Source: Flavobacterium turcicum
GTDB taxonomy: Bacteria; Bacteroidota; Bacteroidia; Flavobacteriales; Flavobacteriaceae
Reading direction: 5' to 3'
Assembly (NCBI RefSeq): GCF_011365745.1
Contig: NZ_JAAOBY010000002.1
Coordinates: 186,001 to 250,000, forward strand
Length of the DNA stretch: 64,000 nucleotides
A program made the translations under genes and the position numbers. The first letter of the stretch is position 1. Each line of letters begins with the position of its first letter. Below, in pieces: positions 317 through 6,554 of this stretch. Under the pieces are notes generated by a model. That model was not told the DNA's origin, did not search any database, and saw only the letters and a list, made by a program, of their open reading frames with translations.

Positions 317-388
317 TTATGAAACCAATTCTGTTTGATTCCTGAATACCAATTTGCCATCAAAGGCATCGATAAGAACAATGGTGTC
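317..388 (-). pseudogene. Duplicated 3' end of clpB (remnant)
   Basis: Read on the minus strand, these 24 codons give DTIVLIDAFDGKLVFRNQ followed by TELVS and a stop. The true clpB at 3951-6554 ends DSIVLIDAFDGKLVFRNQ, TNFVD, stop. Twelve codons are identical, eight differ synonymously and four change the residue. The remnant is in the same frame as the T9SS gene upstream and begins seven codons after its stop. It has no start codon and cannot be a gene alone. The mostly synonymous differences suggest that both copies were once selected as real ClpB C-termini, so this tail may come from a foreign or diverged clpB allele. Confidence 0.85.
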
Positions 389-409
389 GTTTATTGTTTT
401 TAATTGAAA

Positions 410-3925: not shown

Positions 3926-3950
3926 TACAAGTATTAAAGTTTATTTAATT

Positions 3951-6554
3951 TTAATCAACGAAATTGGTTTGATTCCTAAACACTAATTTTCCATCAAAGG
4001 CATCGATTAACACAATGCTATCGGTGGTAATTTTTCCAGAAAGTATCTCTTTTGAAAGCTCATTGAGTACTTCTCTTTGGATGACTCTTTTTACCGGTCT
4101 GGCTCCAAATTGCGGATCGTATCCTTTTTTTGACAAGTAATCAATTGCTTCGGGCGTTGCATCTATCGTGATTCCTTGCGCCGCTAACATTTTCACCACA
4201 CTTTTTAATTGTAAACCTACAATTTGAGCGATATTAGAATGAGATAATGGCGTGAACATTACAATTTCGTCAATACGATTGATGAATTCTGGGCGAACCG
4301 TTTGTTTTAATAATCCTAAAACTTCAACTTTGGCAGCTTCGGTTGCGGCTTCAACGCTTCCGTTTAAATTATCAAATTTATCTTGAATGATTTGGCTTCC
4401 CATGTTAGAAGTCATAATTATAATCGTGTTTTTGAAATCGGCCAAACGTCCTTTGTTATCCGTTAAACGTCCTTCGTCTAAAACTTGTAACAAGATATTG
4501 AATGTATCAGGATGTGCTTTTTCAATCTCATCCAAAAGTATAACAGAATAAGGTTTTCTACGCACAGCCTCAGTTAATTGCCCGCTTTCGTCGTAACCCA
4601 CATATCCCGGAGGCGCACCTACCAATCGGCTCACACTGTGGCGTTCCTGATATTCACTCATATCTATTCGGGTCATTGCGCTTTCATCATCAAAAAGGTA
4701 TTCTGCTAAGGCTTTGGCCAATTCGGTTTTTCCAACTCCCGTTGTTCCCAAAAACAGAAAAGTTCCTACTGGTTTTTTCATGTCTTGTAATCCTGCACGG
4801 CTTCGTCTAACGGCATCGCTCACGGCTTGAATTGCTTCTTCTTGACCTACAACACGCAGGTGCAATTCATCTTCCAGTTTTAGAAGTTTTTCGCGTTCGC
4901 CTTGCAGCATTTTCATGACCGGAATTCCTGTCCATTTAGCAACAACTTCGGCAATATCTTCTTTGGTTACTTCTTCTTTTATCAAAGAGGTGCCCGATTG
5001 ATTTTCTTGCAATTGTTTTGTCAAAGCAGCAAGTTGCTCTTGCGCTTCTTTGATTTTTCCGTAACGAATTTCGGCTACTTTACCATAATCCCCATCTCGT
5101 TCCGCTCTTTCGGCCTCGTATTTTAAGTCTTCTATTTGTATTTTGATGATTTGTATGCCATCAACAACATCTTTTTCTGATTTCCATTTGGCAAAAATCT
5201 CGTTGCGTTCTTCCTTCAAATTAGCCAAATCTAGACCTAAAATTTTGAGCTTATTTTCGTCTTTCTCTCGTTTGATGGCCTCGATTTCAATTTCGAGTTG
5301 CATGATTTTACGATCCAAAACATCCAATTCTTCTGGTTTCGAATTGATTTCCATGCGCAATTTTGAAGCTGCTTCGTCCATCAAATCGATGGCTTTGTCC
5401 GGAAGAAAGCGGTTGGTAATATAACGCTGTGATAATTCGACAGCAGCAATAATTGCCTCGTCTTTGATTTGCACCTTATGGTGCGTTTCGTATTTTTCTT
5501 TAATGCCTCGTAAAATTGAAATGGCGCTTTCGGTATCCGGTTCCTCGATCATGATTTTTTGAAAACGTCTTTCAAGTGCCTTATCTTTTTCAAAATATTT
5601 TTGATACTCATCAAGCGTGGTAGCACCAATGGCTCGTAATTCACCACGTGCCAAGGCCGGTTTCAAAATATTGGCCGCGTCCATAGCGCCCTCGCCACCG
5701 CCTGCACCTACAAGTGTGTGAATTTCATCTATAAAAAGAACAATGTCACCATTAGCAGCGGTCACTTCTTTCACTACCGATTTTAAGCGTTCTTCAAACT
5801 CACCTTTGTATTTGGCACCAGCAATTAAAGCGCCCATATCAAGAGAGAAAACCAGTTTGTCTTTTAAATTTTCAGGAACATCACCATCCACAATTCGGTG
5901 CGCCAAACCTTCGGCAATAGCTGTTTTTCCTACACCAGGTTCACCAACCAACATTGGATTATTTTTGGTTCTTCGGGTTAATATTTGCAATACCCTTCTG
6001 ATTTCTTCGTCGCGACCTATAACAGGATCTAATTTTCCAGAGCGCGCGAGTTCGTTGAGGTTTTTTGCGTATTTGTTCAAGGAATTATAAGTTTCTTCTG
6101 CTGATGCTGATGTTACCTTTTCGCCTTTTCTGAGTTCGTCAATAGCAGCTTTTAGTCCTTTTGAGGTAACGCCTTGATCTTTTAAAATTTGAGCGACTTT
6201 GGCTTTCGATTCGAAAATAGCCAGTAGCAAATGTTCGATAGAAACATATTCATCATTCATTTTTTTACTGATGATTTCAGCGTCGTTCAAGGTGCTGTTT
6301 GCGATGCGAGAAAGCATGATTTCGCCTCCAGAAACCTTTGGAAAATTCTGCAAACTGCTATTGAGAATTTGTTGAAGTAACGGAAGGTTTACGTTCAGCT
6401 TTTTTAATATAAAGGGCGCTACATTTTCGTCTACTTCAAAAATAGCTTTTAATAGGTGTTCGTTTTCAATTTGTTGTTGTCCCAATTCCTGCGCCAATTG
6501 CTGTGCGCGTTGTATGGCTTCTTGCGATTTGATAGTAAATTTATTTAAGTTCAT
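3951..6554 (-). CDS. clpB: ATP-dependent disaggregase ClpB
   Basis: 867 residues, normal for ClpB. This cytoplasmic Hsp100 ring pulls proteins out of aggregates together with DnaK/DnaJ. Order: Clp N-domain (1 to about 145), first AAA+ domain with Walker A GEPGVGKT near 204-211 and Walker B VLFIDEIH, the coiled-coil middle domain (about 400-525) that separates ClpB from ClpA/C, second AAA+ domain with GTTGVGKTE near 602 and Walker B VILLDEIEKAHP, and a C-terminal D2 small domain (GARPVKRVIQ). It has no IGF/L loop for ClpP that I can see. It stands alone, with ytxJ divergent upstream, and ends in a hairpin terminator. Its last 24 codons have a diverged duplicate at 317-388. Confidence 0.97.
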   Translation of the reverse strand: MNLNKFTIKSQEAIQRAQQLAQELGQQQIENEHLLKAIFEVDENVAPFILKKLNVNLPLLQQILNSSLQNFPKVSGGEIMLSRIANSTLNDAEIISKKMNDEYVSIEHLLLAIFESKAKVAQILKDQGVTSKGLKAAIDELRKGEKVTSASAEETYNSLNKYAKNLNELARSGKLDPVIGRDEEIRRVLQILTRRTKNNPMLVGEPGVGKTAIAEGLAHRIVDGDVPENLKDKLVFSLDMGALIAGAKYKGEFEERLKSVVKEVTAANGDIVLFIDEIHTLVGAGGGEGAMDAANILKPALARGELRAIGATTLDEYQKYFEKDKALERRFQKIMIEEPDTESAISILRGIKEKYETHHKVQIKDEAIIAAVELSQRYITNRFLPDKAIDLMDEAASKLRMEINSKPEELDVLDRKIMQLEIEIEAIKREKDENKLKILGLDLANLKEERNEIFAKWKSEKDVVDGIQIIKIQIEDLKYEAERAERDGDYGKVAEIRYGKIKEAQEQLAALTKQLQENQSGTSLIKEEVTKEDIAEVVAKWTGIPVMKMLQGEREKLLKLEDELHLRVVGQEEAIQAVSDAVRRSRAGLQDMKKPVGTFLFLGTTGVGKTELAKALAEYLFDDESAMTRIDMSEYQERHSVSRLVGAPPGYVGYDESGQLTEAVRRKPYSVILLDEIEKAHPDTFNILLQVLDEGRLTDNKGRLADFKNTIIIMTSNMGSQIIQDKFDNLNGSVEAATEAAKVEVLGLLKQTVRPEFINRIDEIVMFTPLSHSNIAQIVGLQLKSVVKMLAAQGITIDATPEAIDYLSKKGYDPQFGARPVKRVIQREVLNELSKEILSGKITTDSIVLIDAFDGKLVFRNQTNFVD

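Follow-up and report, generated by a model that had tools for sequence, protein, structure and literature searches.

A second clpB 3' end behind a predicted type IX cargo gene in Flavobacterium turcicum: indications of recombination at the clpB end

Background

Many small differences in gene content between bacteria involve no mobility gene, and the route by which such genes landed is seldom visible. Minimal mobile elements, which were defined in Neisseria, are a known case in which conserved genes flank exchangeable cassettes (PMC3082526). When a circle with the lacZ end recombined by single crossover in Escherichia coli, 109-950 bp of this end became duplicated (PMC3240628). Homology-facilitated illegitimate recombination was proposed for T6SS and Rhs modules, where displaced 3' ends occur (PMC5361080). 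These and all later statements on published systems follow excerpts of the cited reports. Here we compare with them a locus of Flavobacterium turcicum, in which a predicted cargo gene of the type IX secretion system (T9SS) stands between clpB and a second copy of the clpB 3' end.

The clpB locus

On the minus strand of the window, which is the whole stretch of 64,000 nucleotides analysed, clpB is followed by a hairpin, the cargo gene, a clpB-like tail (called the remnant below), a second hairpin and an intergenic repeat; a DUF808 gene then follows. Other genomes are denoted by G numbers and clpB loci by L numbers. The features are:

3951-6554, minus strand: clpB, 867 amino acids, intact; Pfam AAA_2, ClpB_D2-small and Clp_N
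3901-3924, minus strand: terminator-like hairpin 3' of the present clpB end; fold z-score -3.4
410-3691, minus strand: predicted T9SS cargo gene, 1093 amino acids; YCF48/BNR repeats, fibronectin-like domains and sorting domain (Pfam)
422-640, minus strand: Por_Secre_tail sorting domain of the cargo protein (PF18962, 1.1e-13, residues 1018-1090)
317-401, minus strand: the remnant, some 26 codons of a clpB 3' end including the stop; 77% identity to the clpB tail over 79 bp, E = 3e-15 with the 9 kb behind clpB as search space
251-274, minus strand: terminator-like hairpin 3' of the remnant; fold z-score -3.5, unlike the hairpin behind the present clpB
152-211, minus strand: intergenic repeat at which the sister genome G152 becomes collinear again; near clpB in G254, G294 and G243

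Hairpins resembling the one at 3901-3924 are likewise found 3' of clpB in other species. The cargo gene is regarded as a predicted type IX cargo because of the YCF48/BNR repeats, the fibronectin-like domains and the Por secretion tail of its product. The PF18962 match lies above the cut-off and provides the C-terminal Por_Secre_tail by which T9SS type A cargo is recognised; from this domain, export of the protein from the cell via the type IX system is predicted. Elsewhere in the window, at positions 45864-52031, a unit of 363 or 372 bp, in either case a whole number of codons, is repeated 17 times in tandem, its copies being 73-100% alike; this array is probably a gene for a large repetitive protein.

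Divergence of the two clpB tails

Behind the stop codon of the cargo gene, and in the same frame, the window reads FQLKTINDTIVLIDAFDGKLVFRNQTELVS-stop, to which KITTDSIVLIDAFDGKLVFRNQTNFVD-stop corresponds in clpB. The in-frame copy of the clpB 3' end that the original prediction had noticed at this place is real. Over 25 codons including the stop, the remnant and the present tail have 12 identical codons, 8 synonymous and 5 replacement differences; dropping the first codon gives the 12, 8 and 4 that had been counted before. Under random change of the tail stretch, a synonymous share of 20-28% is expected, and at least 8 synonymous among 12 or 13 changed codons have a probability of P = 0.0006-0.012. 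We interpret this codon pattern as showing that the two tails diverged while coding. The divergence alone does not tell which of the two tails is foreign.

At 75 positions, the present tail differs from that of the sister genome G152 by 10 substitutions, the remnant from the G152 tail by 14, and the remnant from the present tail by 17, and the G152 tail therefore sits between the remnant and the present tail. Of the 131 differences from G152 in clpB, 8 fall into its last 28 bp (3951-3978; P = 4e-5). Such an accumulation would fit a foreign clpB end, but a foreign origin is only suggested by it, and the suggestion is weakened by the marked variation of the final clpB codons within the genus. 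Relatives with a remnant-like clpB end, for which the original prediction had called, do exist: the final residues of clpB are ELVN in G152 and ELVS in G265 and G029, which resembles the remnant and not the present end, NFVD. The sites shared along the tail run 7:2 and then 2:3, which is the direction of a reciprocal crossover but concerns very few sites. No clear step in similarity was seen along clpB between the window genome (G000) and G152 or between G283 and G030.

The sister genome and the position of the remnant

The clpB DNA of G152 is 95% identical to that of the window genome, the next best of the 341 genomes scored (out of 398 of the genus) reaching 81%. The two genomes cease to be similar where clpB ends; from window position 211 onward, they align again for 13.8 kb at 91%. 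A cargo homologue at E <= 1e-60 was found in 9 of the 398 genus genomes, and G152 is not one of these. The relative with an empty site that the original prediction had envisaged is thus found in one respect, the absence of the cargo gene, but the slot behind clpB of G152 is filled by an amidohydrolase gene and is not a clean empty site.

Besides the window genome, the intergenic repeat is found in 5 further genomes out of 106. Aligned with the copies of G254, G294 and G243, it lies 94, 98 and 67 bp past the stop codon of the remnant, the corresponding distances past the clpB stop codon in these genomes being 102, 105 and 67 bp; in G152 and G315 it sits farther from clpB. No repeat of this type separates the present clpB end from the cargo gene, and no further copies of the repeat were detected in the window genome at E <= 0.001. 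Because the hairpin, the repeat and DUF808 follow the remnant at about the spacing between clpB and repeat in three other species, the remnant would most simply be the old end of clpB, displaced from its gene.

Occurrence of the layout in other genomes

Each clpB tail was compared with the next 8 kb of its own locus. Matches at E <= 1e-7 were obtained in 3 of 143 loci (window genome, G283 and G349), a sample that consists mostly of the clpB genes closest to that of the window genome and of cargo carriers, not of a random draw from the 338 clpB-matched genomes, and that includes 7 loci with less than 4 kb of sequence behind clpB. The next match had E = 0.001 and the best reverse-strand control 1.4e-4; coding-tail matches at E >= 0.001 lie within reach of this control and were not counted, and apparent matches in G299, G337 and G005 were dropped, as their alignments consisted mostly of terminator or repeat. 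The pattern G-x-LVFRN-Q/E matches in 277 of the 398 genus genomes and twice in 14, a minimum count, as the G349 remnant escapes this pattern. Both matches fall into one locus only in the window genome and G283, the second match of the other 12 lying on a different contig or more than 200 kb off. In the window genome the pattern occurs twice, both times at the clpB locus.

In G283, clpB is followed by a cargo gene 60% identical to that of the window and then by a 42-bp clpB tail with terminator and repeat, which is 88% identical over 189 bp to the genome's own clpB end. In G349, clpB is followed by a HepT/MntA pair on the opposite strand and then by a tail of about 37 bp with terminator, 93% identical over 123 bp to the own clpB end. 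Tail homology is present at both edges of the insert. In G283 terminator and repeat accompany both copies, so that either could be the older. The in-frame position of the remnant, initially taken as a feature of the arrangement, is not maintained: in G283 the remnant and the cargo gene are in different frames, and in G349 the cargo is encoded on the opposite strand. Readthrough of the cargo stop codon into the remnant was considered and rejected on the same grounds.

The HepT/MntA pair of G349 (L073, 1146-1767) lies directly 3' of clpB. Judged by eye, the same pair is found 3' of clpB in G176 and G296, and G283 has a similar pair behind its cargo gene; a tail copy occurs only in G349 and G283.

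The high similarity of both ends, including the terminators, in G283 and G349 is what a local tandem duplication would leave, in which a cargo gene already behind clpB was duplicated together with the clpB tail and the second cargo copy was subsequently lost. G135, with its cargo gene behind clpB and no second tail, also speaks for this. However, such a history needs two events. In the window genome the two hairpins differ, the 17 differences between the tails are mostly synonymous, and the cargo gene is absent from the sister genome. A tandem duplication is on this evidence unlikely.

In a clpB tree of 42 genomes G283 and G030 are sisters, with G135 next. The cargo gene is common to G135 and G283 (73% identity), and G030 has no cargo match in the genus search (E <= 1e-60). 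G135 is similar to G030 in tail, terminator and repeat (83%); its insert starts behind these elements, with no tail copy. The own clpB end of G283 is 72% like that of G030, its two copies being 88% alike. This distribution fits gain of the cargo in two lineages or loss in one alike. A crossover between both tails of a G283-like layout would, as we infer, excise the cargo cleanly.

Measured from the end of the stop codon, the remnant starts about 85 bp upstream in the window genome, 42 bp in G283 and 37 bp in G349. The starts in G283 and G349 thus lie within about 5 bp of each other, and that of the window genome lies apart. Two nearly coinciding starts, a clpB restored on the near side and a partial tail on the far side could be understood as the work of a recombinase acting in trans that attached at the end of clpB, the remnant being the far attachment site. 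Nevertheless, site-specific integration of this kind appears quite unlikely, given the deviating start in the window genome and inserts that consist, in all three genomes, of cargo gene(s) only, with no integrase of their own and no room for one. Moreover, no identical core common to the three loci was seen, and no title on clpB attachment sites is among the literature matches listed.

Probable recombination at the clpB end

We consider it rather probable that the cargo gene entered as foreign DNA by homologous recombination at the clpB 3' end, and that the remnant is the old end. The incoming DNA would have carried its own clpB end and terminator ahead of the cargo gene, and a single crossover within the clpB tail would have left clpB whole. 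If the incoming DNA was circular or in tandem, one crossover would yield the order clpB, cargo, tail at once, and an integrase would not be required. The original prediction had likewise assumed an insertion by recombination that rebuilt clpB. This receives support from the lack of the cargo gene in G152, from the remnant-like clpB ends of G152, G265 and G029, from the spacing of the repeat and from the layout in G283 and G349, but has to be set against the filled site of G152, the variable clpB ends of the genus and the outcome of the donor search. In the latter, no second NFVD ending was found among 107 tails, and for the final 30 bp of the present clpB the top score, common to four genomes, is 24/30. 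One published test found F. johnsoniae not to be transformable (excerpt of PMC7965970).

In the order of anchor gene, insert and partial copy of the gene end, the locus is similar to the product of the E. coli lacZ circle as excerpted (PMC3240628), which was a laboratory plasmid, whereas the event proposed here is deduced from sequence. Homology-facilitated illegitimate recombination shares the homologous anchor at one end, and the old 3' end can remain downstream (excerpt of PMC5361080). However, the usual product of one-sided recombination with illegitimate joining has a deletion in the recipient (excerpt of PMC3240628), which makes this route less apt for a locus in which the tail is duplicated. 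The T6SS and Rhs modules, as excerpted (PMC5361080), differ further in that here the protein of the anchor gene is retained and the added cargo is unrelated to it.

The cargo gene family

The family is sparsely distributed, but in 8 of the 9 genus carriers, all except G297, clpB is no more than 4 kb away, a proportion inflated by shared ancestry. The gene lies directly behind clpB in the window genome, G135 and G283, 2.4-3.9 kb behind it in G207, G102, G369 and G243, and 1.1 kb in front of it in G189. This proximity would be expected of an old neighbourhood, in which the gene stood near clpB since early in the genus and was mostly lost, the tail copy stemming from an unrelated later rearrangement. 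Such a history is very unlikely, given that the gene occurs both in front of and behind clpB at differing distances and that 9 of 398 genomes carry it. In the protein tree (11 homologues from the loci and 36 of 120 listed proteins), G243 and G189 stand among Tenacibaculum and Flavivirga proteins and G297 with Chryseobacterium, and because carriers are grouped with other genera in this way, the family moves. Three carriers from other genera have the gene far from clpB or on a different contig. The F. limicola homologue, 96% identical to that of G243, has no clpB within its 19 kb, and the Chryseobacterium homologue none within 18 kb. Two proteins from metagenome contigs (P0002 and P0003) match the window's cargo at 76% and 72%. 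Among plasmids, 34 records gave distant matches, all below 60% identity and none covering 80% of the query. The cargo homologue of G207 (L095) has one in-frame stop before its end and may be decaying.

The slot behind clpB

The slot behind clpB is variable and its front neighbour conserved. Among 137 genomes whose sequence extends 3.5 kb or more behind clpB, the first gene belongs to 52 families (rough ORF calls), and a thioredoxin-like gene (named by eye) stands in front of clpB in 52 of 58 loci, which include some genomes twice and, among the 6 misses, 1 truncated by a contig end. DUF808 is the first gene in 42 of the 137 genomes and lies within 7 kb in 72; of these 72 loci, 38 have it less than 0.5 kb from clpB and 34 farther away. 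Most changes of the slot leave no scar of the kind described, because only 1 of the 34 loci with displaced DUF808, that of the window genome, has a tail copy. The slot is not reserved for surface proteins, as the original prediction had it, since G349 carries the HepT/MntA pair.

With differing whole genes between conserved ones and no mobility gene, the slot resembles the minimal mobile elements as excerpted (PMC3082526). It differs in that the comparison here is between species, with DUF808 near clpB in only part of the genomes, and in that three slots hold a second copy of the end of the anchor gene. Homologous recombination in the flanking genes is indicated by the tail duplications in these 3 loci, but no clear step along clpB was seen in the genome pairs compared. 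The apparent novelty is that, in three genomes, a single housekeeping gene remained intact and an additional end stayed behind as a scar; among the literature matches listed, no title concerns a role of this kind for clpB in Flavobacterium.

It is conceivable, though doubtful, that the clpB 3' end is a recurrent, integrase-free docking site in Flavobacterium, where arrivals bring their own tail and terminator, rebuild clpB and leave a scar, and where recombination between the tails can remove the cargo cleanly. If recombination at the clpB end is the right reading, the scar reveals the anchor gene, clpB stayed whole, and a surface protein and a HepT/MntA pair used the same place. A search for duplicated gene ends behind accessory genes follows from this as a rule applicable to any genome set.

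Some further observations concern the same slot. Two gene families of 163 and 344 amino acids in G369 (L099, 6146-7695) each occur behind clpB in 13 of the 137 genomes, the 163-residue family as first gene in 13; both look secreted from their starts, as judged by eye. A gene of G029 resembling a tyrosine recombinase by eye (L068, 8515-9732) lies behind DUF808, 2.3 kb from clpB. In L066, L074, L080 and L083, the clpB terminator and repeat recur one or two times within a few kb, in each case with no clpB coding sequence, and these copies could also be usable as recombination sites.
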